The notes under the pieces: model-generated | Seen by the model: the letters and a program-made list of their open reading frames with translations, nothing else | Told to the model about the DNA's origin: nothing | Databases searched by the model: none | In this document: one piece after another, positions 2,835 through 64,000 of the stretch | How positions within the stretch are numbered: position 1 is the first letter of the stretch | How the letters are laid out: each line of letters starts with the position of its first letter | Position numbers and translations under genes: made by a program | DNA from: Paratinospora sagittata | Taxonomy: Eukaryota > Streptophyta > Magnoliopsida > Ranunculales > Menispermaceae | Reading direction: 5' to 3' | Assembly: GCA_035771175.1 (NCBI GenBank) | Contig: CM069589.1 | Span: 30,448,201 to 30,512,200, forward strand | Length of the DNA stretch: 64,000 nucleotides

Positions 2835-3034
2835 GTGGTTCGGCTTCTTTCTTACGTCCACTACTTAACCTCCTCAGTTAGAATTTTAAACCTTATCACT
2901 AAGGGATTCTCTTACGGGTGAGAACCAAAGGGTGTGAGAACAACCGTTACACTTCTCAACTTACGGGTGTGAGAACTACCTTTTCTCAACTTATAAGTGT
3001 GAGAATATCGTTTCTCAACTTACAAGTGTGAGAA
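2835..3034 (-). promoter_or_regulatory. Sire-C leader hairpins and tandem hairpin array
   Basis: In sense (minus) orientation an array of small hairpins ends with one at 2924-2907 (stem TTCTC/GAGAA). Others lie at 2953-2975, about 2982-3004 and 3012-3034, with stem TTCTCA/TGAGAA and loop CACCCGTAAGT or derivatives. About 43 nt further comes the GTGGACGTA...CCGAACCAC hairpin (2864-2835), about 116 nt from the LTR end. The same layout occurs in the other Sire families. A role in RNA structure, dimerisation or packaging is inference. Confidence 0.6.
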
Positions 3035-7800: not shown

Positions 7801-9606
7801 TGTTGGTTTGATGACCGTCGCCGTCTTTGATTTTGATGATTCGAAACGATATCTCATGTGATCTAACATATTTGTTGAGTATGTATCAATATAATACTGT
7901 ATGATTGATCTTGAGAATAGAAACAAAGACAATACTCACCAAGTGTAGATCAAGACTGAAGTTCGGATAAAAAACACAAAAGTACAAATCAAGAAAACTC
8001 AGCCAGTACATATGGAACACAAGACAAGAAATCAAGTCAACTGATGTCAAGCTAGAAGTCAACCTAAGTCAACCAAAGATCAAGGCATAAGAGCTCAAGG
8101 ATATACATCCGGTGTAATTGTTTAGATCTCTTAGGTTGTAGGTCTTTCCTGATTAATCAACCACTTGATTTCTCATTCATGTTTTTATTGTATTGCATCA
8201 TATCATATCATTTTTTATTCCTTCGAGATATTATTGTTTTGATGCATGCTTTTACGAAATCAAGATTTGAAAGCTTTTATTATCACATTTAGAACAAAAC
8301 ATATTTTCTTTTATAGAGAAACTCACTCCATGACATCTTCCTTCAAAAACTTAAGTTTCTGATTGTATTTTGAGTTTCAAGATCTTGTTCCAGGTGTGAT
8401 TTTAATGTTTTATTAATTATGGAACTTAGACATGTTCAAGAATTATATTCTTGACATGCACACATTTTCCAAGAACCCGTGGAATGCATTCCTCCCTATA
8501 GGAACACACTCAAACAGTCAAAACACACCTATTTTGCCTCCGACATGCTAGAAAGCACTCCAACAGAGAGAAAAGTGTTTCAGGCAAGCACAAAATAGTC
8601 ATGTGTTCTGGGATCTTGTGGAACACGTTTCATCAGTGTGAAACGCGTTCCAACAATTCAGACCCAAAACACTGTGTTTTGGTCTCGGGTCATGTGGAAC
8701 ACCCTTCAGCAGTGTGAAATGTGTTCCAACTGGTGAACTTAAAAATTTTGTTTTTTGTGGAATGAACTCCAGCAGTTGGAACACACTCCACTGACAGATT
8801 TTTGTTTTTGCAAAAAATTAAATTTTAATCTTGAGCATTCATTGTGGGTCGTTGATTTATGTTAATACATGATTAAATCTTTTAATCTTCGTCGTCCATG
8901 ATGGGATTAGGGTTTTCGAACATGGTTTTCTATTTTTACAATCATTAAACCCTATTTTGAAAGACAAGAACTTTTATTATTTTCTCTCCAACCATTTTCT
9001 CTGCAACTGAACTTAAAGAAGACAACCGTCATTGGAAAGATGGGATTTTCATGGTGATACATTGAGATTTTAATCATTCATCTTTAGCAAAGTTTGTTCA
9101 CGATCTCGAGCTTTATTACATATCTAATTCTTAGATCGTTCTGAGGTAATATCTTTTCGATATTTTTATTTCTTGTTGTTCATGTGTTCTAAAATATTTG
9201 TGGCTGAGAAATCTTGAAAAGATCATTTACAGGATGTAATTTTTCTTTTGGGAATTTGTTCCCACATTGAGCAAATTTCCTTCCAATTATTGATATATTA
9301 TTGAATGTTAGCGGTTGGGCTAGTTGGGAAGATTTTTTAATAAGAAATCGGTGTTTGTAACCGGTTTGATGCTCACTCGTGAAGTTGGATCGGTATAGTG
9401 AAGTGTTAGGAAATCCTGATCGGGGAGATCGGGTAGTGGAGGTAGGCTTGTTGGGAAGCCGAACCATTCTAAATTTGTGTGCATTGCCTCATCTACTGCT
9501 TTTATTCTATTCCTGCATATTTTACTGTTATTGTTCACTAACTGTTTAAAGAAAGGTCCAAAAAATCTGTGACACCCAATTCACCCCCCTCCTTGGGTGT
9601 CTATCA
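7801..9606 (+). mobile_element. 3' LTR of Sire-A1
   Basis: 1806 bp, starting TGTTGGTTTGATG directly after a polypurine tract and ending CACCCCCCTCCTTGGG...TCTATCA. It matches the Sire-A2 LTR, which once its two insertions are removed is about 1750 bp. U3 carries a palindrome array (8480-8795). U5 carries the conserved hairpins at 9415-9433 (stem CCTGATC/GATCGGG, loop GGGGA) and 9434-9469. The sequence after it begins CAAAG; the partner duplication lies outside the window. Confidence 0.93.
8480..8795 (+). repeat. GGAACRCRYTCC palindrome array in Sire-A1 U3
   Basis: About ten imperfect copies of a 12 bp palindrome (ideal form GGAACGCGTTCC) occur in pairs 15-20 bp apart, for example GGAATGCATTCC, GAAACGCGTTCC and GGAACACACTCC. 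The same motif recurs in the Sire-A2, Sire-B and Sire-E LTRs and in a gypsy-type LTR fragment at 12555-12620. Confidence 0.8.
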
Positions 9607-13975: not shown

Positions 13976-14072
13976 GATCCTCACCCTTGTAGTAGGATCC
14001 TTAGTGGGTGATTTTGAAAAATCTTGATCAGGGAGATCAAGTCGTGGACGTAAGCCATAAGTACCGAACCAC
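13976..14072 (+). promoter_or_regulatory. Conserved three-hairpin leader of Sire-E U5
   Basis: H1 at 13976-13999 has stem GATCCT/AGGATC and loop CACCCTTGTAGT. H2 at 14023-14041 has a perfect 7 bp stem CTTGATC/GATCAAG with loop AGGGA. H3 at 14043-14072 carries GTGGACGTAAGCC and ACCGAACCAC. The block ends about 125 nt before the LTR end, so it would lie in the genomic RNA leader upstream of the primer site. Function is inferred, not shown. Confidence 0.6.
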
Positions 14073-16330: not shown

Positions 16331-16655
16331 AAGGAACACGCTCCTATAGTAAGGAACGCACTCCTGAGCTTTTTCCTAAGACTTAGTGAATTTTTTATTA
16401 GGGTTAAGGAACGCGCTTCTGTGGCTTTTCCCGAGACTCAATTTTTTTCTTATCAGGGAAAAGGAACGCGCTCCTGTTGCTAAAGGCAAAATGAGAACAA
16501 ATTCAAGAGTTAATGGTTCTTGTTGAAGGAACGCATTCCTATGCCCAACAGACATATTGAGGAACGCGCTCTTTAATTGGATGAAAATCTTGAATTTTTC
16601 ATATTTCAAACTAGAAGCGCGTCCCCTATGTTGAAGAGCGCGTTCCTGTGCCTCG
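16331..16655 (+). repeat. GGAACGCGCTCC palindrome array upstream of TATA (Sire-B)
   Basis: About eight near-palindromic units such as GGAACACGCTCC, GGAACGCACTCC, GGAACGCGCTCC and GGAACGCATTCC occur over 325 bp. A TATA box follows 15 bp later. The matching array in the Sire-B2 LTR is at about 41396-41670. The position fits a U3 enhancer; binding by a host factor is not shown. Confidence 0.8.
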
Positions 16656-18664: not shown

Positions 18665-18904
18665 ATGCATACGATTCTTGAACTTGCATAAAAATATTTT
18701 GAATTAGTTGCATGTATTTTTGAGAAACTATTTCAACATTGCACTTCATTTAGAATCATAGTGGTTGGAATAGTGATTGTTGACTCAATCAAGATTGTAA
18801 GCTTAAATTGTTGTGTTGTTTTTCACTTCTCTATATCTTTGTAATCTTGATGTATTGTTGACTTGGTTAAGTCAATCGGGATATACCTTATTTTGTACAA
18901 CACG

Positions 18905-19149
18905 TAACTACCCTGTAAGTTGGTTGGAAGTTGTGGCTTACTAGTCAAGCCCTAGTATAGGCTACATTGTGGCTCTCTAATTGAGCCCTTGTGTAGGTTA
19001 GCCTTGTAGTGACTTTCTAACCAGACCCTGGTATTGGTTAGTGTAAACGGCTTCTAATCCGCCCGTAAGTGATTAGCCAATAGAAGATTGGAAAATCTTG
19101 ATCGGTGTGATTAGGTAGTGGACGTAGGTTCAAGGGGAGCCGAACCACT
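18905..19149 (+). promoter_or_regulatory. Sire-B tandem hairpin array and leader hairpins
   Basis: Five to six units of about 42 bp, each a small hairpin: CTAATT/GGTTAG (two wobbles), CTAACC/GGTTAG with loop AGACCCTGGTATT, and CTAATC/GATTAG with loop CGCCCGTAAGT (19054-19076). H2 (19097-19115, CTTGATC/GATTAGG) follows, then H3 (19115-19149, GTGGACGTAGG...CCGAACCAC). Spacing from the last unit to H3 is about 39 nt. Confidence 0.6.
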
Positions 19150-21795: not shown

Positions 21796-22018
21796 TGTTG
21801 CCTTGATGGCCCTCGCCCTCCTTAATTTTGATGATTACAAACGATATTTTATGCGATCTAACACCCTTGTTGAGCATGTTTTAGTTTGGTGCCATGTGTT
21901 TGGCCTTGAAGTTTAAAGAAAAAACTAATAACCATTCAGTGAAGGTCAAAATTGAAGTTCAGGATCAAGAATGATAAAGCCAAAGAAAAGAAAACTCGAT
22001 TAGTGTATATGAAGCCAA

Positions 22019-24007
22019 TGTTGGCCCAGGTATGTCCAAGAGGGGGGTGGATTGGACACTTAGACAATTTAAAATTAATTACAATGGCAAAGTTAAAGTG
22101 CGGAATATAAATAAATATGCACAATCGACTTATAGTGGTTCGGCTACTTGCATACATCCACTACTTAACCTCCTTAGTTAGGATTTTAAACCTTATCAAT
22201 AAGGGATTTTCTTACGGGTGAGAATCAAACCGTTACACCTTTTCTCAACTTGCGGGTGTGAGAACAACCATTACACTGCTCAACTTGTAGGCTTGAGACC
22301 AACCTATCCCAACTTGCGGGTGTGAGACAGACCTAAGCTTTCTTAACTTACGGGTGTGAGAACTACCATTTCTCAGGTTAGGTGTGTGAGAAGACCGTTT
22401 CTCAACTTACGAGTGTGAAAAGACCTAACCTTGTTGAATATAAGAATATCAACTCAATAGTTTATCTAACTACTATTACAACCTTGATACAATATACAAG
22501 ATATGAAATTAAGTACAACTGTATCCTATGAACTATCTCCCAAATTTCTCTTCTGGCAAGAATGAAATAAGTTAAAATAGTGCTAAAAATTTGAGTAAAA
22601 ACAGTTCAAGCTTTCAAATAGATTTTCAGATAAAGGTAGAAAGTTAGCTCAATATGAAAATCTTTTGAATAAGTAGAGTTTCAAAGAAAGCGCTTTGAAA
22701 CCAGAAAAACTTAAGCTTTTTGATTCAGATGAAAATTCGACTAACTTTCAAAAGTGTTTTGGCTTAGAGAATTTTCAGTAGCCTTAACAGATTGTTAAGT
22801 GCTCCTATATATAGACTTGTAGAGATGAAGTTGTTGTTCATTTGAATTTAAATTTAAAATATGAACGTTTACTCACAACAGCTAGAATGTATCATGAAAA
22901 TGGCAATTGCACATTTTATGAACATTCTGATTTTCTCCAGATTCACAAATAAGGAAAGTTTAAGAGATGTGTTCATGAATCTGAGAATATCTCTTACAAA
23001 TACAAGAAGTTGATTTTGTGTACGAAAAGTTGTTTTGAAAAGGTGGCGGAAAAGATGTACGTGTCAGAACAATAGAAATATCATTTTTGTCATTTTGTTC
23101 CTTAGAGGGTGCTCATATAGCATCAGCGTCCTATCAAACGATGAAGTGAGGGCATTACTGAATCGTAAGCCTCCTGACTTACTATGACAATTAAATAACT
23201 TAAATTCTGAGGGCACTAATCAATAGTTAGCGTCTTGTTTTGTTTTAAAACATTAAAAGTACGAGGGCGCTACTCACAAGTGAGTGTCCTGAAATTGAAA
23301 ACTATTTTAAAACAATATTAAGTGCGTTAAAGGACAGTAAGCATCCTGAAAGTTATTAAGTTGATTCCAAGAATAAGGGCGCTCCTATACAAGTAGCGTC
23401 CTAATAGTTTGTTCAATTTATAACTATCAGCGTCCTTAAAGATAGAAATCAATTAAAAACTAAGAGATCTTTCAGCGAGCTGAAAATAAGTTAGCGTCCT
23501 AACTCTCTCAAAGGTTGACAAAAGGAAGGCCGCTACTTTCAAGCAAGTGTCCTAATAAATTAGTTCAATTCAACCTTGAGCGTCCTAATATTTTATTAGC
23601 TTTCTGACTCATCAAGTCTAGGAAGGCGCTGCTAAAACATTGGCGTCCTAAAAGACTCTATAAAAGCGGTTTTTGATTTCTCGATTAAAGCTCGATAACA
23701 TACAATTAAAATCATGATATTTTCTGATTAAATTAAATACTTTGGAAATCATGAAATATCTTTAAAATGTGATGATCAAAATAAGAAAACGATTAAATCT
23801 TGCTGAGAGTAAATTTGATCTTTAGTCCTTCCATTCTAAGTACCGAAGGACTTGGAACTTTAATTGATGTTCAATTGGCTTGTGAGCATAGTTCCTTGAT
23901 CTTGATTCTTGATAAATCTGAAACACTTGACAAGATCATTAGATACACGAATTGGAGATATATGGAATCATCAAAACATTGATGTCATGAGGTTCATTGA
24001 GATAACA
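22019..24007 (-). mobile_element. 3' LTR of Sire-C
   Basis: TGTTGGCCCAGG...GAGATAACA, 1989 bp. In sense orientation it has the palindrome array (23652-23104), a TATATATAG box near 22810, the hairpin array (22432-22203) and the leader hairpin (22164-22135). It abuts a polypurine tract at 24008. Confidence 0.93.
23104..23652 (-). repeat. GCGC palindrome array of the Sire-C LTR
   Basis: Roughly eight paired units of the type GAGGGCGCT...AGCGTCCT, with complementary halves about 10-20 nt apart. The sister array in the 5' LTR is at 30326-30870. In sense direction the array lies upstream of the TATA-like box near 22810. Confidence 0.75.
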
Positions 24008-24310
24008 ATCTCCCCCTTTCTGATGATTTCAAATACTCATGGATCATGTAGATAATTATATTCATGTACTGAAACAGATAACGAATTTAGAGTATCAAGT
24101 ATGTCAAGAATATCTGCAAGCATGTCAGGTATATCTGATTTCAATATAAAAATTACAAGTTGAGTACAATCACAATATTCAAGAACCTGATAATTATACA
24201 GTCAACATATTGTACAGAAACTTAGATGAACTCCCCTTGACTTGTAGCTTCCCTCTTGAGCTAACTTAGCCTTAATATCTGCATTCTTTTTTCCCCCTTT
24301 TGAAAACATC
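24008..24310 (-). promoter_or_regulatory. Three polypurine tracts of Sire-C
   Basis: Pyrimidine runs on the plus strand at 24009 (TCTCCCCCTTTC), about 24231 (CTCCCCTTG) and about 24290 (TTCCCCCTTTTG) are polypurine tracts in sense. The first abuts the LTR. Multiple tracts match the Sirevirus pattern. Confidence 0.75.
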
Positions 24311-29184: not shown

Positions 29185-29226
29185 TAATATCAAATAAATT
29201 GTGAAGTTTATTTGAAGAGCAACACT

Positions 29227-29238
29227 GCTATGATACCA
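29227..29238 (-). promoter_or_regulatory. Primer-binding site (initiator tRNA-Met), Sire-C
   Basis: In sense, TGGTATCATAGC, one mismatch from the tRNA-Met complement, two bases from the 5' LTR end. Confidence 0.9.
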
Positions 29239-29240
29239 AT

Positions 29241-31228
29241 TGTTGGCCAAGGTATGTCCAAGAGGGGGTTGATATGGACACTTAGACAATTTAAAATTAA
29301 TTACAATGGCAAAGTTAAAGTGCAAAATATAAATAAATATGCACAGTCAATTTATAGTGGTTTGGCTACTTTCCTACATCTACTACCTAACTTCCTCAGT
29401 TAAGAATTTAAACCTTATCACTAAGGGATTTTCTTACGGGTGAGAATCAAACCGTTACACCTTTTCTCAATTGCGGGTGTGAGAACAACTGTTACACTAC
29501 TCAACTTGCAGACTTGAGACCAACCTATCCCAACTTATGGGTATGAGACAGACCTTAGCTTTCTCAACCTACCGGTGTGAGAACTACGATTTCTCAGCTT
29601 ACGGGTGTGAGAAGACCGTTTCTCAACTTACGGGTGTGAGAAGACCTAACCTTGTTGAATATAAGAATATCAACTCAGTAGTTTATCTAACTATTGTTAC
29701 AACCTCGATACAGTATACATGATATGAAATTAAGTACAACTGTATCCTATGAACTATCTCTTAAATTTCTCTTCCAGTAAGAATGATATAAGTTAAAACA
29801 GTGTTGAAAATTTGAGTGAAAACAGTTCAAGCTTTCAACTAGATTTTCAGATAAAGATAGAAATTTAGCTTAGTATGAAAATCTTTTGAATAAGTACAGT
29901 TTCAAAGAAAATGCTTTGAAACAAGAAAAACTTAAGCTTGTTGATTTAGATGAAAATATGACTAACTTTCAAAAGTGTTTTTGCTCAAAGAATTTTCGGT
30001 AGCCTTAACAGATTGTTAAGTGCTGGTATATATAGACTTGTAGAGATGAAGTTGTTGTTCATTTGAATTTGAATTTCAAAAATGAACGTTTACTCACAAC
30101 AGCTAGAATGTATCACAAAAATGACAACTACACATGTCATGACATTCTAATTTTCTCTAGATTCACATATAAGGGAAGTTTAAGAGACGTGGTTCAAGAA
30201 TCTGAGAATATCTCTTACAAATACAAGAAGTTAATTTTGTGTACAAAAAGTTGTTCTAAAAAGGTGGCGGAAAAGATGTACGTGTCAGAACAATAGAAAT
30301 ATCATTTTTGTCATTTTGTTCCTTTGAGGGCGCTCATATAGCATCAGCATCCTACCGAACGATGAAGTGAGGACACTGCTGGCTCGTAAGCATCCTGACT
30401 TAATATGAAAATTAAACGACTTAAATTCTGAGGGCACTAATCGACAGTTAACGTCCTGCTTTGTTTTAAAACATTAAAAGTATGAGGGCGCTACTCAAAA
30501 GTGAGCATCCTGAAATTTGAAAACTATTTTAAAACAATATTAAGTGCGCAGAAGGACAGTAAGCGTCCTAAAAGTTATTAAGTTGATTCTAAGGATAAGG
30601 GAGCTCCTAAACAAGTAACTTCTTGATATATTGTTCAACTTATAACTATCAGTGTAGTTAAAGATAGAAATCAGTTAAAAACTAAGAGATATTTTGGCGA
30701 GCTAAAAATAAGTCAGCGTCTTGACTCTCTCAAAGGTTGACAAAAGGGAGGTCGCTACTTACAAGCAAGCGTCCCAATGAATTAGTTCAATTCAACCTTG
30801 AGTGTCCTAATATTTTATTAGCGTCCTGACTCATCAAGTCCAAGAAGGCGCTACTAAAACATTAACTTTCTGAAACACTCTATAAAAGCGATTTTTGGTT
30901 TCTCGATTAAAGCTCGTAACGTACGATTAAAATCATGATATTTTTTGATTAAATTAAATAATTTGGAAATCTTGAAATATCTTTAAAATGTGATGATCAA
31001 ATTAAGAAAATGATTAAATCTTGCTGAGAGTAAATTTGATCAGTTGTCCTTACATTCTGAGTACTAAAGGACTCGGAACTTTAATTGATGTTCAATAGGC
31101 TTGTGAGCATAGTTCCTTGATCTTGATTCTTGATAAATCTGGAACACTTGACAAGATCATTAGATACACAAATTGGAGATATTTGGAATCATCAAAACAT
31201 TCATGTCATGAGGTTCATTGAGATAACA
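29241..31228 (-). mobile_element. 5' LTR of Sire-C
   Basis: TGTTGGCCAAGG...GAGATAACA, 1988 bp, collinear with the 3' LTR. Palindrome array at 30326-30870, hairpin array at about 29421-29650 and leader hairpin at 29357-29386 (slightly degraded). Flanked at 31229 by ACCAA. Confidence 0.93.
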
Positions 31229-31861
31229 ACCAAGTCAAGAAGAAGTCAACTAAAGTTCATTGTAGATCAAAGCAAATGAATTGCAATAATGTTTTATTTT
31301 GTAATTGCTTTAGATTCTCTTAGGTTGTAGGTTTCTTCTTAGGTTGATCAGTCACATAGTTTTTGATTGGTTTTTCTTGAGTATTTCCATATTTGGTTTT
31401 TCAGTGTATCTTTTCGTTTAATGATGATCGTAAATGTTTTAAAATGATTGTATTGCATGACTTTGAAAAGAATTTCATCATACGTGAAAATTTCAAGGAA
31501 TGCACTCCTTCCCAAAGGAACACACTCCTTGGCATGTTTTTTTGCTAAAAGTCACTTTTCCAGATTTGTTCTTCAATTCAAATCATGTTCCTTGGTTGTT
31601 CTTAATGTTTTATCATGTAATTAACTCATACATGTTCAAGAATTGTATTCTTGACGTGTACATGTCTCTCAAGTACCCGAGAAATGCATTCCTTCTTGAA
31701 GGAACACACTGTTGGTCCACCTAAGAGGGGGGTAAATTGGGTGGGACGGTCAATTTTAAACTTCTCTTCTAATAACTTAGTAATATACATAAATGTATTG
31801 GAATTGATTGCAAAATTAGAACTCAAACTAAATTGCAAACGTGAGACACACAAGATTTAAT

Positions 31862-32275
31862 GTGGTTCGGCCAAGCCAACGTCCACTACCTAATCTCCCG
31901 ATTAGGATTTTCTCAATCCACTAACTAATTCTCTTATGGGTGAGAACCAAACCGTTATAACTGCCTTTTTAGAGGTTAAGGGCAAACCTATCCTTTCACG
32001 GGCTACGGATGAACCAAATTTCCTTTTTTCTAGATGAGAAGAAACCCATGTTCCTTTTACGGGATGAGGAAGAACCATTTTCCTTTTACGGAATAAGAAA
32101 GAACCGTGATCCTTTTACGGGTTAAGGAACAACCGTTTCTCTTTTATAGGTTAAGAGTTAACCTATCCTTTTATAGGTTAAGGACACACCTATCCTTTTA
32201 CAGGATTAGGATGAACCGGATTCCTACTTGCAGGTGAGGATGAACCTTTTTCTCTTTTATAGGTTCAGAGATAAC
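31862..32275 (-). promoter_or_regulatory. Sire-D tandem hairpin array with changing stems, plus leader
   Basis: About ten units share a loop related to AACCCGTAA (plus strand TTACGGGTT) but have different, still complementary stems: TTCTC/GAGAA, TTCCT/AGGAA, TCCTT/AAGGA, CTCTT/AAGAG, ATCCT/AGGAT, CTCT/AGAG. H2 is at 31889-31906 (perfect 7 bp CCTAATC/GATTAGG). H3 is at 31862-31888. The nearest unit is about 40 nt from H3. Confidence 0.65.
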
Positions 32276-33246
32276 CTCACATGATTTCAATCTAGAAATA
32301 ATTAAGTGAACTACATTTACTTTTCCTGGTTGTTTCAGTCTAGAAATACACAAGCATTACAATACAATAATGTTGGTTCTATCTGAGTAGAACAATTCAC
32401 AATTAAGCTCAGTACATAACATTATAAAGATATGAAATATGAATATGTAATGCTAAGATGAAATACGCTTACAGTCCTTTACCTTTTAATGTTCGGTATT
32501 GCTCAAGTGCAGTTTCGAAAAGCATGAATGATGTGATATGAAAATCAGTGCTTCTTCGAAAATAATATGATACCAATAAACATCGACTTGAAAATTGAAG
32601 GACCAGTGTAAATCATAAACACAGAAGGTTTTCAAAATAAATATAAAAAATTAGTATGAACACTTCTAGTTCGATGTTCAGTAGTTAACACAACTACTGA
32701 TATAGTTCAATACAGTACTTAAGATATGAAATCAAGTACAAATGTATTTCTCATGAACTATAATTCAAATTCTATCTTCAACAAGAATGATACCAAGTAT
32801 GAATCGGTGCTAAGAATTTGAGTAGATACCAGATCAAATAGATTTTCAGAGATAGAATATAATTAAAGCTCAATGTAAAAATACTTTGAAAGTTTAGATA
32901 CTAAAATACATTTTGACACAGACTAACTTTCAAAAAGTAATGGCACAATACAAAATGATTGGCAAGTTGTTTGATCCTAAGTGTTGGTATTTATAGACTT
33001 AGTGGGACATAGCCGTTAGACATTTGAAGTTTAAATAATATGAACGTTCACACACAACAATTACAATGTTATATGAAAATGGCAACTGCAATTCTCACTA
33101 ACATTCTGGTTCTTTTCAGATTTCATGATAAAAGAAAAATTTAGAAAAACTTAATTCATGTATCAGAGAAGATCTTTGATATCTCTAAAAAGAACTCTAT
33201 GCAAAGGTCCATTCTGAAAAAGTGGACTTAGAACAATGAAAATTGT

Positions 33247-33925
33247 TGAATTAGTGTCCTGATTCCGTAATCAGTGTCCTGATGCACAATATCAACTTTG
33301 TCATTTTGTTCCTTGAGGGCGCTCATTACGTATAAGCGTCCTGCAGAACACTTAAGTGAGGGCACTACTAACTTGTAAGTCCTGACTTACTTTGATACTT
33401 TAAACGACTTAACCCTGAGGGCGCTAACGTATAGTTAGCGTCCTGCTATGTTTTAAAAGCAATTAAGTGCATGAGGGCGCTACTTTCCGAGTAAGCGTCC
33501 TACCTTTCAGAACATAAAACAAAACATGAGGGCGCTACAACTCTGTAAGCGTCCTACTACATATTTAAAACATTTGAAGCCAAACACAAGCACGTTGAAG
33601 GACAATCCGCGTCCTGAAAGTTATTAAGTTGATTCCCAAAGGTGAGGGCGCACCTATCCAGATAGCGTTTTGATAGTTTAATCAACTTAAAACTATCGGA
33701 GTCCTCAAAGATATATTCTTTGATGACTTAAGAAATCTATCAATGAGCTGATGTTGAGTCAGTGTCCTGATAACTACAGGGTTTGACTAATGAAGGTGGC
33801 CGTTACTATACAAGTAAGTGTCCAAATAAATCAGTTCAATTCAACCTTGAATGTTATCAGCGTCCTAATGAACTAACAACATCCTGATTTATCATGTTCA
33901 GGAGAGCGCTGCTATCTCATTAGCA
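33247..33925 (-). repeat. GCGC palindrome array of the Sire-D LTR
   Basis: About a dozen GAGGGCGCT / AGCGTCCT half-site pairs over 680 bp. The sister array in the other LTR is at about 35600-36285. The motif is shared with Sire-C although the rest of the LTRs differ widely. Confidence 0.75.
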
Positions 33926-34398
33926 TCCTAAAAGACTTTTTAAAAACAATAAGTGGTTTGTGCATGGTTTTGGGAAACGTTTGAGCAATAACGATTAGAG
34001 AAAGATATACCTTAAATACTTTGTGTATTTCTCATAATTGTTAAATCCAACTCTTTATTATGAGATCTTCGATGTTAACTTCGAGCTGACTTGAATGTCT
34101 TGAACGTTGATCAAAAGGTGAAGACTTGATGCTTGATCGAGTCGTTCGAGTGAAGTGATCTTGAAATCAGGATGTGAACGTTGAAGTCCATTTGATTGAA
34201 ACAAACTTGACCGTTGGATGTGATCTTGAGTTCCGTGATTGAGTCGTTCCTTAGATTTTTTCATTTCCTTCGGTGCTGAGATAAGTTCTTGATAAATGCA
34301 CGTTTAGCACCGAAAAGTACTTTGTTTGTAATCATCAAAATATACTTTATCATAGTTTATTTAGGGACGAGCTAGGTGATGAACTGCATAGGTTAACA

Positions 34399-35370
34399 AT
34401 CTCCCCCTTTTTTATGATGACAAACAAATCGAAAAAGTAGACCCTTAAGCAAAAAGATTAATGTAAATTTCTTTTCCTCTTATTTTTCTTCCTATCTTAT
34501 TTTTCTTCTCCCCCCTTTGATATCATCAAAAAGTGAAGAAAAGAGACTAAGATCTCCTCTTGTGACGTAGCAGAGTAGCAAAGCTCTGCCTTTCATGGAG
34601 ACTCCCCCTTATTTTGTGCATTCACCCTCAAGATGATTTATGACAACGTGTCATAGTTAGGTACGTGAGAATGCGTAAGGTCTACCATACTGGTAGTCAT
34701 GTGAGAAACAAATCTTATTTTTAAGCACATAGAGAAATAATTTGACCAAGTCATAGGCTAAAATATTTACAATAATAGCGAAGCCGAGAATCGTAGTCAT
34801 AGTGAATGAGAAAGAATTGCCGAAAGATGAATTCATAGAGAATTTTTAATCGTGGACAATTATTCTCCATAGTGTTAGGCATAAATATAAGTTTGAAAAA
34901 TAGTCCAAACACAAAATATGCATTAAGATTTGTAAATAAACAAGCACAACATACTTACAGTATAGGCAAAATGATTTAAGATTAAGCAAGGCCTAGCTAT
35001 TATGATTCTAACAAGATGTAAAGTGTATAGTTTGAAGAAAATGGCATCTATTAGATATCAAAAATCACAGTCGATTGATGTATACAAAATATAATATTAA
35101 AGAGCAACATCAATGGCATGTGAAATGGAAAATTATAAACTTTCCATAGTTTAGACATGTGAAGATATATATGATGAATATCAAAGTCTAAACTTGCTGA
35201 ATATATGCTAAATTTCATAGAAATCATTCAAGCAACAACATAGATGCATTTTCCAATTCTAGGCAAGTAATTTTAATTAAAGCATGGTCTAGAATGTTTG
35301 ATACAATGATTCTAATGAGAAAGCATTTGAAAGGGTATGTACTCATTAGAAATCAAATATCCATGAAGTT
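34399..35370 (-). other. Remaining Sire-D interior with three polypurine tracts
   Basis: Pyrimidine runs at 34401 (CTCCCCCTTTTTT), about 34509 (TTCTCCCCCCTTTG) and about 34610 (GACTCCCCCTTA) are polypurine tracts in sense. No coding region. The deletion junction to the truncated LTR lies near 35371. Confidence 0.75.
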
Positions 35371-36877
35371 CAAATAATATGAACGTTTACACACAACGGC
35401 TAGAATGTTATATGAAAATGACAACTGCAATTTTCACTAACATTCTGGTTATTTTCAGATTTCATGGTAAAGGAAAGATTTAGAAAAACTTAATTCATGT
35501 ATCAGAAAAGATCTTTGCTAAGTCTGAAAATGACTCTGTGCAAAGGTCCATTCTGAAAAAGTAGACTGATGCAGTGTACTTATTAGAACAGTGACGATTG
35601 TTGAATTAGCGTCCTGATTCTGTAATCAATGTCCTGACGCACAATATCAACTTTGTCATTTTGTTCCTTGAAGGCGCTCATTACGTATAAGCGTCCTACA
35701 AAACACTTAAGTGAGGGCACTACTAACTTATAAGCTTCCTGACTTACTTTGATACTTTAAACGACTTAACCCAGAGGGCGCTAATGCAAAGTTATCGTCC
35801 TGCTATGTTTTAAAAACAATTAAGTGCATGAGGGCGCTACTTTCCAAGTAAGCGTCCTACCTTTTAAAACATAAAGCAAAGCATGAGGGTGCTACAACTC
35901 TGTAAGCGTCATACTACATATTTAAAACATTTAAAGCCAAACACAAGCACGCTAAAGGACAATCAGCGTCCTAAAAGTTACTAAGTTGATTCTCAAAGGT
36001 GAGGGTGCTCCTATCCAGGTAGCGTCCTGATAGTTTAATCAACTTACAACTTACATCGTCCTCAAAGATATATTCTTTGAAAAACTTAAGAAATCTTTCA
36101 GTGAGTTGATGCAAAGTCAGCGTCCTGATAACTTCAGAGGTTCACTAATGAAGGAGACTGCTACTATGCTAGTAAGCGTACTAATAAATCAGTTTAATTC
36201 AACCTTGAACGTTATCAGCGTCCTAATGAACTATCAGCTTCATGACTTATCAAAAATTGCAGAGCGTTGCTATCTCATTAGCGTCCTAAAAGACTCTTTA
36301 AAAACAGTTTTGACTAGCAATTAAATAATTGATAAATGTAAATAAAAACTTGGTAAATTTTAAATTAAATATATAAAATTAAATCATTTGAAATACCGTA
36401 AAATGTATGATCAAAACATGCAAGTATGCAAGTGGTTTGTGCATGGTTTTGGAAAACGTTTGAGCAATAACGATTAGAGAAAGATATACCTTAAATACTT
36501 TGTGTATTTCCCATAATCATTAAATCCAACTTTTCATTATGAGATCTTCGATGTTAACTTCGAGTTGAGTTGAAAGTCTTGAACGTTGATCGAAAGATGA
36601 AGACTTGAAGCTTGGCCGAATCGTTCGAGTGAAGTGCTCTTGAAATCAGGATGTGAACGTTGAAGTCCTTTTTATTGAAACAAACTTGACCGTTGGATGT
36701 GATCTTGAGTTCTTTGATCGAGTCGTTCCTTAGCTTTTTGCATTTCCTTCGGTGCTGAGATAAGCTCTTGATAAACGCATGTTGAACCCCAAAAAGTACT
36801 TTGTTTGTGATCATCAAAATATACTTTATCACAGTATATTTAGGGACGAGCTAGGTGATGAACTGTATAGGTTAACA
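35371..36877 (-). mobile_element. 5' LTR of Sire-D, truncated
   Basis: Collinear with 33020-34398 of the other LTR, ending in the same GGTTAACA. The part carrying the hairpin array, leader and primer site is deleted. It keeps about 125 bp (36305-36425) that the other copy has lost. Confidence 0.9.
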
Positions 36878-37937
36878 CACATTCTAGTAGAGAAAACACT
36901 GATATTTTTGTCTAAGGCATGGAGGAACGCATTCCATGCTAGGGAAAAAATGTCTATAATTCTCGAGTCTTGAGGAACGCGTTCCAGACATAAGGAACAC
37001 GTTCCAGCAGACCTGACAAAATACGATTCTGTATCGGGTCTTGAGGATAGCTTTCCAGCAAAGAGGAACACGTTCCTTAAAGTGAAGAAAAAGTCTTCAC
37101 TTCCCTCGTGGAATGCACTCCTCGATTGGAACGCACTCCACCTGCGCACTTTTAATTTTTGCAATTTATCGAGTTTTAATCACGAGCATTCGATTAAGGC
37201 CATTAATTTTTATTAATACATGTTTAATACATTTAATCTTGTCGTCCACTTTAGGTTAAGCTTAATTAATATATAAGTTATCATTAAAAACCCTACCAAG
37301 TACAACTTTTCATTATTACTCTGCAAGAACATTACTACAATTGTGTGAGAGAGAAAAGATTTGTCAACACTTGGAGAACCAGTGACCAAAAATAGTTTTC
37401 CTGGGATTTTTCAAAGCATCAATCTTTGCAAAAGTTGATTACGATCACGCACTAATTTACATATCTCATTTTTTATCATTTTAAGGTGAATTGATTCCAT
37501 ACTACTTTCAGTTGCACTTCACTTTCATTCTTGTGGTTGAGAAATCTAGGAAGGAATCAAAAGCTTTGTAAGTTTTATTTTTCGATGTTTGTTCGATAAG
37601 GAACAACTTCCTTTTGGTCATTTGATGTATTATTGAAGCTAGCTTGTTAGCTAGTTGGAAAGATTCCCTAACTGGGAATCGGTGTTTGTATTAATATTGA
37701 ATCCGCACTCGTGAAGTAGGATTGGTATAGTAAATTTAGGAAATCTTGATCGGGGAGAACAAGTAATGGAGGTATGCTTATTGGGAAGCCGAACCACTCT
37801 AAATCTCGTGTGCATTGTGTTTTTTATTGTTTTATTTAATTTCCTACGATATATTTTGCATTGATTAGTTTTATTTGAGAAAGGTCCTGAAAAATCCGTC
37901 AACACTCAGTTCACCCCCTTCTTGGGTCTCTATCAAG

Positions 37938-37949
37938 TGGTATCAGAGC
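37938..37949 (+). promoter_or_regulatory. Primer-binding site (initiator tRNA-Met), Sire-A2
   Basis: TGGTATCAGAGC, a perfect match to the complement of plant initiator tRNA-Met, two bases after the LTR. Confidence 0.95.
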
Positions 37950-40806: not shown

Positions 40807-43445
40807 TGTAGATGTAACTACTCTCACCCAATTTAGTTTTGATGATTGCAAATAACATACCTGTGTTATCTAATCTTTTTGAGGTAGTTGTTTCAGTGCT
40901 AACCAGATATATCCAATGGATTCAACTGCATTGTCAAAGCATGTGGAATGAACAACACCTCACAAACATTCAAGAGCTTCGTGGTTGTATTACTTTATTA
41001 GAATCTTAGTGTTGTAGAGTAATTTTTACTTGTTCCAACCACATATGATTTGCATCTTTTTAAAATCATTCATATAGTTTATTATTCTAATGCTTGCACA
41101 TATTTTAGCTTATCAATTATGCCATCACTTAGTCATAATTGTTTCTCATAGATATATTGATTAATGCCTAACATGCATTCATCTTGTCAACTTTGCATGG
41201 TTTTATCGTTTCACGCGTATTATACTTATTGCTTTAAACATTGGTTTAATCGATTGAATCACTCATGTGTTAACTGTGTTAACTATACCTTAATCGTGTC
41301 AAAAATATTTGAAAATATTTTTAAAATCTTAGTTTATGTTTTTGATAGTGTCCTAAACCTATAATAATCAAAAATTGAGTTTCCTTCACTTGTCAGTGAA
41401 GGAACGTGCTCCTATAGTGAGGAACACACTCCTGTGTCATTTTTTGAGACTCATAATTTTTCTGATCAGGAAAAAGGAACGCGCTCCTTAAAAGAGGAAC
41501 GCGCTCATGTTGCCAAAGGCAAAATGGGAACAACCTGAAGAGTCAGTGGTTCTCGTTGAAGTTACCCGTTCCTATGCCCAACGAAAATATTAAGGAACGC
41601 GCTCCTTAATCTGAAATTTTTTAGATTTCAAACCAGAAATGCGCTCTTGTGTTAAGGAACGAATTCTTGTGCCTCTGTGTGGTGTTTATCTTTAAATACC
41701 ACACTTGCTCATTTGAAGAACAACTTTTGCAAAATCAAGAGAACTTGTGTATTTTTCGTCTAAGCCTTTTTATAGGTCAACAACAAGTTCTTGAGTCCTT
41801 TAATCATTTTTTCAAAGTAAAAGTTCAACAACATTTGACTATTTGATCCAATCTTCCGAATAGTTTTCCACATATTTCAAAACCTTGAGAAACTTGGAGA
41901 GTTTCTCTTCTGCAAGTGTTCAAGATAATTCAAGTATTTTCTACAACATCTATTGAGTCTTGGTCCTGATTTCTATCATCCAACTTCACGCGAGAAGAAT
42001 CTTGGAGCTTCAATGTCACACCCTGGGTTGCACAGCGTGCCCCCTACCCAGGTGTGGGCGCACCCCCTCGGGGCGAACACCTAAGCCATTATGGATCCAT
42101 AATATTGTCATATCGCCATGTAGCAACCCAACCGCAGCTGGTCTACATCGAAACGATTATTTGTCTGCTACTAGGAATGCGAAATTAGACTCCTTAAGGG
42201 AGGTCTCGAGTTCGATTCCTAGGGAGGCCCTGCACTATTCATGAATAGTGGCAGACAAATAATCGTTTCGATGTAGACCAGCTGCTGTTGGGTTGCTACA
42301 TGGCGATAAGACAATATTATGGATCAATAATGGCTAGGCGTTCGCCCCGAGGGGGTGCGCCCGCACCTGGGTAGGGGGCACGCTGTGCAACCCAGGGTGT
42401 GACATTCAACCTTCCCAAGCCCCATACATTTCTAATCTAAATTCTTGTGATTTTGGTTTGTGCAAATCAGTTTTGTCCTTAGATTATCATCTTTAAAACT
42501 GATTTTGTATTGTTTGTGTTTTTGAATTCCTATCTTGATCTTCATATAAAAATACCTTGTTTATTGATTTCATAAATAGTTTGAAATATCAATTCATGTG
42601 TTAGTATCATATGATATTGAATCGAAATTTTTGATCATACTTGAGTTGTTTGATTCTTGATGTTAATCACATATTCATTTAGAATCATCAAGTCTTGATC
42701 ATCATGATATACTGATTCTCGATCTTTAAACTTACTGTTATTTAGAATCAATACCTTGATAGTTGTGCATAATCGATTCACTATTTTAGGTTACATATAT
42801 TTGAATCGATTGCATTTGACAAAAACCTATTTCAATACTTTGCATCATTTAGAATCATAGTGGTTGGAATAGTAATTTTTGTCTCATTGAAGATTGTAAG
42901 CTTAAATTGTTGAGAGTGTTTTTGGAACACTTCTCTATAGCTTTGTCATCTTGATGTATTGTTGACTTGGTTAAGTCAACTGTGACTATACCTTATTTGT
43001 ACGACACTTAACCACGCCCGTAAGTTGGTTGCAAGTTGTGGATTTCTAGCCAAGCCCTGGTGTAGGCTAGATTGTGGCTTTCTAACTAAGCCCTTGTGTA
43101 GATTAGTGTTTATGGCTTCCTAACTGAGCCCTCATGTTGGTTAGCTGTGTGGCTTTGTAACCTGGCCTTGGTGTTGGTTAGTGTAAACGGCTTTTAACCA
43201 CGCTCGTAAGTGATTAGCTAATAGTGTATTAAAAATTCCTGATCGTAGTGATTGGGTAGTGGACGTAGGTTCAATGGGAACTGAACCACTCCAAATTCTC
43301 TGTGTTCACTTATTTTCCTGCATTTGTTTATTTGGATTGTTACCTACTGCACACTTTAATTATTTAATTTCAATATCCAAAAGGTAACGCGGAAATCTGC
43401 CAAGTCCAATTCACCCCCCTCTTGAACTATAATACTGGGCCAACA
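40807..43445 (+). mobile_element. 5' LTR of Sire-B2 with a fold-back insertion
   Basis: TGTAGATGTAACTACTC...GGGCCAACA, 2639 bp; about 2240 bp without the fold-back element at 42014-42404. Collinear with the solo LTR at 15749. Palindromes at about 41396-41670, degraded TATA near 41690, tandem hairpins at 43010-43216, and H3 at 43256-43290. The insertion site in Sire-A2 is the same integrase-RT linker hit by Sire-C in Sire-A1. Confidence 0.93.
42014..42404. mobile_element. Fold-back element with LTR-like ends and B-box-like core
   Basis: 391 bp, bounded by TGTCACACCCTGGG and its reverse complement and flanked by the direct repeat TTCAA (42009-42013 and 42405-42409). The arms 42014-42168 and 42251-42404 are inverted repeats with about five substitutions and one indel in 155 bp (about 96%). 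The 82 nt centre holds AGTTCGATTCC (42209-42219), one base from the pol III B-box consensus, and an 18 bp perfect palindrome CACTATTC/GAATAGTG (42233-42250). There is no coding capacity. TG...CA ends with 5 bp duplications suggest retroviral-type integrase, while the long inverted repeat suggests a MITE. Class unresolved. Confidence 0.85.
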
Positions 43446-63227: not shown

Positions 63228-63387
63228 CCAATGGCGGTTGAGTATTTAATACCCCGCTGGCAGGATCATGTCACTTAGGCTAGAAGTGAATGATCAGGAC
63301 GAGATGACCAATGGCGGTTGTGTATGTAATACCCCGCTAGCAGGATCATTCCTCTTAGGCTGGAAGTGAATGATTAGAATGAGACGA
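63228..63387 (+). repeat. Tandem duplication, 2 x 80 bp
   Basis: CCAATGGCGGTTG starts at 63228 and again at 63308; each copy continues TAATACCCCGCT(G/A)GCAGGATCAT and GAAGTGAATGAT. Copies differ at about ten positions. It lies within the gypsy-type LTR. Confidence 0.85.
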
Positions 63388-64000
63388 CCCTAGGATGCAA
63401 GTTATACTCCAAGATGGAGGACCGACCTATGGTCTATAAATATAACTAAGGGTCGGTGGAGTTTTTAAATGTACATGAAAGTGGTTGATGCTTATTTTAT
63501 TATGTGTTTTATGTTTCACATACTTATGAGCATAATTTTATGCATATGCATATATGACTTTATTGATGTATAATTGATGGCATAATTGAACACTATTCAC
63601 TGGGCACCGTTGGCTCACACTCTCACTCTCTTTCCAAGTTCTACTGATAAGGGTAAAGGCAAGGGTATTGCATTTGCTTGAGGACCTAGCCATTACCAAA
63701 GCTAGGGACGTCCTGACGTGAGTCTAGGTTTGATGTGTATGGATGGATGTCCTTTATTTACATATGTATAATGTTTTTCTTATTTTGATACATATGTAAT
63801 CTATAACATTTGTTAAACCTAGATGGTGAGAGGGATTATGGTTTGTTGATGTATATTGGCCTTGTGGCCTTGGGTTTGATGTACTTGATTATATGTTTTG
63901 GACTTGGACTAGATGATGGGTCTAGGCATGTTGCCTTAGACTATTTTGGGTTTAATTGAGGACTTTTGTGATCATGGTTGTATGTTCTATTTAAGGATCA

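Follow-up and report, generated by a model that had tools for sequence, protein, structure and literature searches.

Tandem hairpins with like loops and matching arms in the probable RNA leader of Sirevirus LTR retrotransposons of Paratinospora sagittata

Does a run of short repeats near the end of a plant LTR, in which the loop of each potential hairpin stays alike while its stem changes, reflect an RNA structure that the element conserves, and what could such a structure do? The question is raised by a 64,000-nucleotide stretch of the Paratinospora sagittata genome (C1:30448201-30512200 of 1.29 Gb; hereafter the window), for which an earlier note, made from the letters alone, had described tandem hairpins of this kind in one LTR, called Sire-D, and a like loop on unrelated stems in related families. 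All structural copies described below come from this one genome.

Sire-C and Sire-D were compared with the landmarks given for Sireviruses (Ty1/copia) in Bousios et al. 2010 (PMC2829016), and Sire-C carries these landmarks; A, B and E were grouped with them by like LTR ends. Sire-C has a pair of 2-kb LTRs (29229-31229 and 22008-24008, 90.5% alike), and it reads on the minus strand because of the placement of three features: a primer-site-like TGGTATCATAGC after the first LTR on that strand, a copia-type gag piece (PF14223, 28540-29133 minus) and a polypurine tract (AGGGGGAG-AT-TGTTATCTC from 24017 minus, at the start of the second LTR). The CA/ATTGG junction with the TATCAGAGC primer site is present as CAACA-ATTGG-TATCATAGC, with one mismatch, ending at 29227 minus (copy C1). 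The polypurine tract AGGGGGAG followed by AT/TG at the 3' LTR and the C-rich integrase signal, CCCCCTC before CAACA, are found in both Sire-C and Sire-D. In Sire-D the tract reads AGGGGGAG-AT-TGTTAACC from 34408 minus, and because it stands just upstream of TG the LTR is by place a 3' LTR; it matches the window again (33951-34398 with 36430-36877) and ends in CAACA, 177 nt past the start of the motif. As separate observations, AAGGAACGCGCTCCTT-type palindromes of another element (8376-8510, 16350-16476, 31460-31710) flank the 3' end of the D LTR and recur elsewhere, and an 80-bp direct repeat, its two copies 86% alike, lies at 63228-63389.

The Sire-D array consists of 12 GGT-headed units (31925-32271, minus strand) spaced by about 29 nt, begins about 79% along the length of the LTR and lies 724-1,070 nt downstream of its TATA box (Table 1). 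With hand-made unit-cutting rules that were fitted to this array and that demanded CC or TCTA in the loop, 10 of the 12 units can be drawn with stems of 4-9 pairs that enclose a loop with CC, in line with the tandem units first described, and all five Sire-D stems named in the earlier note are present. AACCCGTAA is the loop of a single unit, its neighbours having AACCTATAA, AATCCTGTAAA, CATCCCGTAAA and similar loops. The order of last unit, hairpin 2 and hairpin 3 recurs in families A, B, C and E within the window, and in every family seen hairpin 2 is preceded by a like last unit (HA). C, B, E and A2 likewise have the stems that the earlier note gave for them; in A2 the loop is diverged, and a primer-site-like TGGTATCAGAGC follows the last unit at 37938. 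As an aside, the 5' splice-site consensus GTAAGT stands inside B and C loops (29620-29642, 19054-19076) and is absent from the D array loops.

Table 1. Hairpins and landmarks of the Sire families in the window (positions in the window; "named earlier" refers to the earlier note).
Feature	Position	Strand	Remarks
Sire-D LTR, about 2.7 kb	31710..34398	-	3' LTR by its position; TG start directly preceded by AGGGGGAG-AT
Conserved TATA box AAGTCTATAAATACC of Sire-D LTR	32988..32995	-	like core in other D, C and B loci
Sire-D unit, TCTCT/AGAGA	32251..32271	-	named earlier
Sire-D unit, TCCT/AGGA	32222..32240	-	
Sire-D unit, ATCCT/AGGAT	32192..32212	-	named earlier
Sire-D unit, TGTCCTT/AAGGATA	32164..32186	-	includes G.T
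Sire-D unit, CTCTT/AAGAG	32139..32157	-	named earlier
Sire-D unit, TCCTT/AAGGA	32110..32128	-	named earlier; loop AACCCGTAA
Sire-D unit, TTTCTT-ATTCCGTAA-AAGGAA	32081..32103	-	second register also possible to draw
Sire-D unit, TTCCT/AGGAA	32051..32071	-	named earlier
Sire-D unit, TTTCTT/AAGGAA	32020..32044	-	loop without CC
Sire-D unit, ATCC/GGAT	31990..32010	-	loop GTAGCCCGTGAAA
Weakest Sire-D unit	31974..31988	-	best hairpin there is an alternative GGTT/AACC
Last Sire-D unit (HA), TTGGTTCTC/GAGAATTAG around ACCCATAA	31925..31950	-	
Hairpin 2 (HP2b) of Sire-D, CCTAATC-GGGA-GATTAGG	31889..31906	-	
Hairpin 3 of Sire-D, GTGG-ACGTT-GGC..GCC-GAA-CCAC	31862..31886	-	present in non-Sire loci too
Sire-C 5' LTR array and last unit	29427..29648	-	stems TTCTCA/TGAGAA
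Sire-C stem TTCTCA/TGAGAA	29620-29642	-	
Sire-C 3' LTR array	22205..22425	-	approximate ends
Sire-C third copy, array	2905..3034	-	approximate ends
Sire-B array and last unit	18904..19076	+	B stem named earlier at 19054-19076
Sire-B second copy, array	43009..43217	+	last unit partly decayed
Sire-E last unit GATCCT/AGGATC	13976..13999	+	
Sire-A2 last unit AATCC/GGATT	37700..37723	+	diverged loop GCACTCGTGAAGTA

Further copies were drawn from the genome, in which GTGGACGTAGG occurs 10,945 times and GGTAGTGGACGTAGG 5,135 times, the 100 matches listed for each being all on contig C1. Loci were fetched at the first 60 GTGGACGTAGG places (12 Sire-type), at 40 GGTAGTGGACGTAGG places (one dropped) and at 30 of the 113 E-type places; with the eight window loci this gave 89 Sire-type loci, 88 of them distinct. 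By class they are D (28), C (16), B (10), E (33, including one A copy and one duplicate) and unclassed (2); as locus L129 is the window's own E copy, the E counts include one duplicate. Locus L067, in which the Sire motif follows unlike upstream DNA, was dropped from most analyses and counted in the 60-locus shuffle test. The D copies have 5 to 15 loop-signature matches each by a rough count. Many copies are decayed, and the combination of few families and decayed copies limits the statistical power of covariation tests.

By the earlier note, stems that pair no better than in shuffled LTRs would have counted against the idea; this is not what is observed. The Sire-D array holds 9 hairpins against 3.05 in dinucleotide shuffles, with 9 reached in none of 500 shuffles, and 60 loci average 8.87 hairpins (stem at least 5, loop 7-14) against 3.83. 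By family, over 87 classed loci with one duplicate, the hairpins per locus and their shuffled values are 10.36 and 3.80 in D, 6.62 and 3.64 in C, 6.80 and 3.41 in B, and 5.64 and 4.10 in E; DNA farther upstream, taken from 28 loci, had 4.25 against 3.68. The loop motif is present in 27% of hairpin loops in D (1.1% in shuffles), 20% in C (1.0%), 19% in B (0.6%) and 11% in E (0.3%). The folding energy of the D array is unremarkable against shuffles (z -1.37 sense, -1.87 antisense) and shows no strand preference, and Rfam gave no match up to E 1 within 29200-34500.

The arms match within units. When the window D array is divided into its 12 units by a fixed rule blind to pairing, the 5' arm of a unit scores 11.71 with its own 3' arm against 9.39 with those of other units (p 0.0004). 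Over 398 distinct loop-signature matches in array units, own arms score 10.33 against 7.69 for dealt-out arms (0/1000), and the direction is the same within families (own and dealt-out 10.76 and 8.48 in D, 11.03 and 9.99 in C, 9.74 and 8.29 in B, 8.13 and 7.28 in E). These wider numbers are rough, because the signature, which uses loop letters alone, also matches C-runs in 5' arms; in the window D array it gives 12 matches, five of them misplaced and one outside the array. Locus by locus, again with the loop signature, own arms are better in 27 of 28 D loci (p<0.05 in 25), more weakly in 6 of 9 C loci (p<0.05 in 2) and in 3 of 3 E loci (p<0.05 in 2); no B locus has five matches. For the last unit across all families the values are 13.26 (own) and 10.10 (dealt-out), and the within-family test for this unit is not significant in B or in C. 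Since two controls also differ slightly (8.15 vs 7.59; 7.14 vs 6.65), part of the own-arm advantage is local composition.

Formal covariation tests count against the reading. Under a tree-based null, computed for the three-hairpin core on 87 distinct rows, a single pair is significant: that at position 6 of hairpin 2 (E 0.025; TA in 66 rows, CG in 19); the remaining proposed core pairs fail it and several unpaired column pairs rank above most proposed ones. Pairing is kept at each proposed core position in 71 to 86 of the 87 rows. The same null on 195 distinct D array units found no significant pair. RNAalifold on a MAFFT alignment marked three pairs only; they lie in the inner stem of hairpin 3, and one of them shows nine changes on both sides. 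The small number is, we think, due to a register shift between families. In the D stems G.T cells (111) show no clear excess over A.C cells (96). Limited power does not set these results aside. Of the compensatory change that the earlier note reported, the matching of arms within an array and the carrying over of the fold between families (below) thus stand, and significant covariation is confined to one core pair under the tree null, with none among D units. To call this the classic mark of selected RNA structure was too strong, given no clear G.T excess, no strand-specific folding energy and template switching as an alternative. In passing, three loci (L081, L082, L105), apparently two separate cases, have the same base (A/A, G/G) at 5'-arm position 3 and 3'-arm position 6 of the last-unit stem, a change that breaks it.

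The transfer of the fold between families was measured with covariance models built from a 97-nt piece of 19 D copies, 9 of the 28 D loci having been left out of training for spacing. The models used the proposed fold (R1), no pairs (R2) or a decoy fold with an equal number of pairs (R3; one decoy was tried). Among 60 held-out rows of other families, 59 of them distinct, both R1 and R3 matched 16 of C, 10 of B, 2 of A and 31 of E (one duplicate), and R1 outscored R3 in all 59 of these rows, the duplicate included, by a mean of 17.9 bits (13.7 in C, 22.4 in E, 11.8 in B, 12.8 in A). R1 also exceeded the sequence-only R2 in 59 of 60 rows, a comparison to be read with the local match scoring and different sequence weighting of R2. 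The E loci had been found by a pattern fixing part of hairpin 2, and the motif used to find most loci fixes the letters on one side of hairpin 3; the cleaner comparison is that with C and B. The scoring dropped a D-type copy (L152:15-111), a second L127 match (24.3, 11.7, 17.2 bits) and a few weak off-target matches. R1 also picks out the Sire-A2 copy (37690-37797, 35.0 bits). The scan took in 18 of the 48 non-Sire loci, along with five overlapping longer pieces, and these scored 11.6-30.7. One three-part fold, made of the last unit, hairpin 2 and hairpin 3, is thus shown to transfer to four other LTR families. Together with the arm tests this supports a fold whose arms match within the units of one array and which carries over between families, and we consider it probable that the hairpins are conserved as structure.

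The position of the array was examined in 28 loci with long upstream DNA. C and D LTRs show, in the sense direction, RM-like half-sites (RM being the published Sirevirus repeated motif), a GTYTATAWATA box, the array and then the motif. The TATA box precedes the motif by 549-1,261 nt; it is present in 8 of 9 C loci (-549 to -652, with one at -1141), in all 6 D loci (-1090 to -1261) and, in the form TATAAATACCACACTTG, in 5 of 10 B loci (-1137 to -1205), and a box of this kind is missing in the other 5 B loci and in all three E/A loci. By sequence landmarks the orientation of the elements and the placement in U5 hold, and in C, D and half of B the units lie between the TATA box and the LTR end. 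With a conserved TATA box upstream of it, the array is probably part of the transcribed leader that runs from the cap to the primer site, in agreement with the earlier note; that the hairpins themselves belong to the leader is probable, a shade less so than their conservation. A very short R in Sire elements was inferred by Benachenhou et al. (PMC3601003), so that the region after R would be mostly U5. The Sire-C/D leader, from presumed start to LTR end, is likely to measure roughly 760-1,250 nt; the transcription start and the exact R/U5 border we infer. The RM-like palindromes upstream of the TATA box (AGGACGCT..AGCGCCCTCA type; about 30330-30860 minus in Sire-C, 33222-33480 in Sire-D) are without the CGG-CCG core.

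The 48 non-Sire loci, probably other Copia lineages, match the 3' side of hairpin 3 in 47 cases and pair its inner stem in 42. Because a TATA box stands 64-175 nt upstream of hairpin 3 in 42 of the 48 (a count made without a shuffle control), hairpin 3 seems to lie in the leader generally. A placement of the array in U3, suspected from TATAAAT after hairpin 3 and from the CCTATAAAAG loops of D, was dropped in view of the better conserved TATA box far upstream and of the non-Sire boxes, mostly 64-175 nt before hairpin 3. Three non-Sire loci (L007, L009, L012) have, about 60-30 nt before GTGGACGTAGG and just before hairpin 3, GATC/GATY around a loop ending CTGTAA, which resembles the Sire last unit. 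Letters of hairpin 3, including the inner GGC/GCC, also occur in LTRs of another genus, since three Citrus LTR primers in PMC7876178 contain them (GACGTAGGC-TAAAA-GCCGAACCA, GTAGGC-GGGGATT-GCCGAACCA and GGCCGAACCACGTAA). A scan of viral contigs with a 16-base motif gave ten matches; these had GC 0.52-0.70, lacked the remainder of the motif and were put down to chance.

What could a hairpin array in this place do? Lying between TATA box and LTR end, the array is likely to be copied into the 5' (R/U5) leader of the genomic RNA. Its units would fold there into hairpins and might form a multivalent docking platform for the element's own Gag, in packaging or dimerisation. The like loops would be the Gag binding sites, the stems would merely hold them, the tandem copies would supply avidity, and a fixed three-hairpin core would stand near the primer site. 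A constant loop on a variable stem is what recognition of the loop by a protein would leave, and an RNA-binding CCHC knuckle has been reported for Sirevirus Gag (PMC2829016). As an overall explanation, a leader array serving as a Gag docking platform is tentative, short of an even chance, and that Gag docking is the main job of the hairpins we hold to be possible, if anything slightly less so.

For the cause of the matching arms the strongest rival is template switching between the arms of an inverted repeat, during DNA replication or reverse transcription, which would correct one arm to the other while units spread by tandem duplication, leaving stems without an RNA function. Hairpins can arise and persist through template switching, which can also produce multibase compensatory changes (PMC8794818), and the lack of a clear G.T excess and of a strand preference fits it. 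Against it, loop letters are alike across families, the order of last unit, hairpin 2 and hairpin 3 is kept in each family seen, and a fold trained on D transfers; we regard this rival as unlikely on balance. Less likely again is that the hairpins control translation of a long leader, by ribosome shunting, internal entry or repression, and are not packaging signals. Structured leaders of plant pararetroviruses act in translation control, and the place in a likely leader of such length in C and D agrees with this, but the stems are short and weak and the unit number seems, by a rough count, to vary threefold between D copies.

Two further rivals look to DNA or to the host. The units might be DNA-level regulatory palindromes, downstream kin of the RM, which seems doubtful to a somewhat greater degree than translation control: Table 3 of PMC2829016 likewise lists tandem inverted-repeat units in LTRs, but the published motifs have constant palindromic arms and lie upstream of the TATA box, whereas here the arms vary, the loop is alike and the place is downstream, and C and D carry separate RM-like half-sites before the TATA box. 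The hairpins might instead serve chiefly to give rise to host small RNAs or to be targeted by them, a role proposed for the palindromes of maize Sireviruses, whose clusters attract mapped small RNAs (PMC10760457, citing Bousios 2016). This we hold improbable, as it leaves conservation by the element unexplained and the maize palindromes have a different place, in the cis-regulatory region.

A bolder form of Gag docking would have a dozen or so tandem H-type pseudoknots in the U5 leader, with flank GGT (GGC in B) pairing to loop ACC (GCC) and the variable stem closing the second helix; this multivalent Gag platform, its copy number tuned by duplication, would end in the fixed three-hairpin core, the last hairpin being common to other plant LTR retrotransposons. 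The pseudoknot reading is suggestive only, and as a whole unlikely. Flanks and loops of the same unit score 6.46 against 4.21 with shuffled flanks and 5.55 with dealt loops, and B pairs GGC/GCC, in some units GGCTT/AAGCC; yet control hairpins that lack CC likewise score above dealt loops (4.61 vs 3.74). Within D arrays own pairing is better in 22 of 26 (5 at p<0.05, median p 0.118) and in C in 3 of 7, and as many as 72 of 195 D units have a T/T mismatch. A kissing contact between a CCCG loop and CGGG of hairpin 2, which by eye fits D (CCCG/CGGG) and E (CCCT/AGGG), was dropped, since loop 2 varies within D (GGGA, GAGA, CGGA, AAGA, TTGA) and B and C do not fit.

Among the known systems nearest to the array are the Sirevirus RMs (PMC2829016), which are likewise tandem inverted-repeat units in LTRs, several to many per element. 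Their arms are constant, in most cases with a CGG-CCG core, and they occupy the upper half of the LTR; the array shows neither such arms nor such a place, and the words "hairpin" and "packaging" are absent from the main text of that paper. The maize LTR palindromes (CACCGGACNNNGTCCGGTG; PMC10760457, citing Bousios 2016) are also hairpin-forming clusters in LTRs but, unlike the array, have constant arms and a link to small RNAs. The nearest working parallel, by analogy, is the 5' domain of Ty1 RNA (TIPIRT; a pseudoknot and kissing hairpins; PMC5454406), a structured leader for packaging, dimerisation and the start of reverse transcription. Ty1 has few defined, mutation-tested elements, whereas here a tandem array is predicted from sequence and no kissing pair was seen to hold across families. 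In the literature covered, titles and abstract openings with subscription journals mostly outside, neither the array nor hairpin 3 was found described as a structure.

Sireviruses can account for much of a plant genome, in maize for 21%, as cited in PMC10760457. A structured array in the likely leader, ending in a fixed core, is a concrete RNA to probe; the final hairpin of that core is also present in other LTR elements. To our knowledge, no packaging signal has been mapped for Sireviruses. The array can also serve as a test bed for selection on RNA structure as against the correction of arms by template switching, since many diverged copies of one hairpin stand side by side in it.
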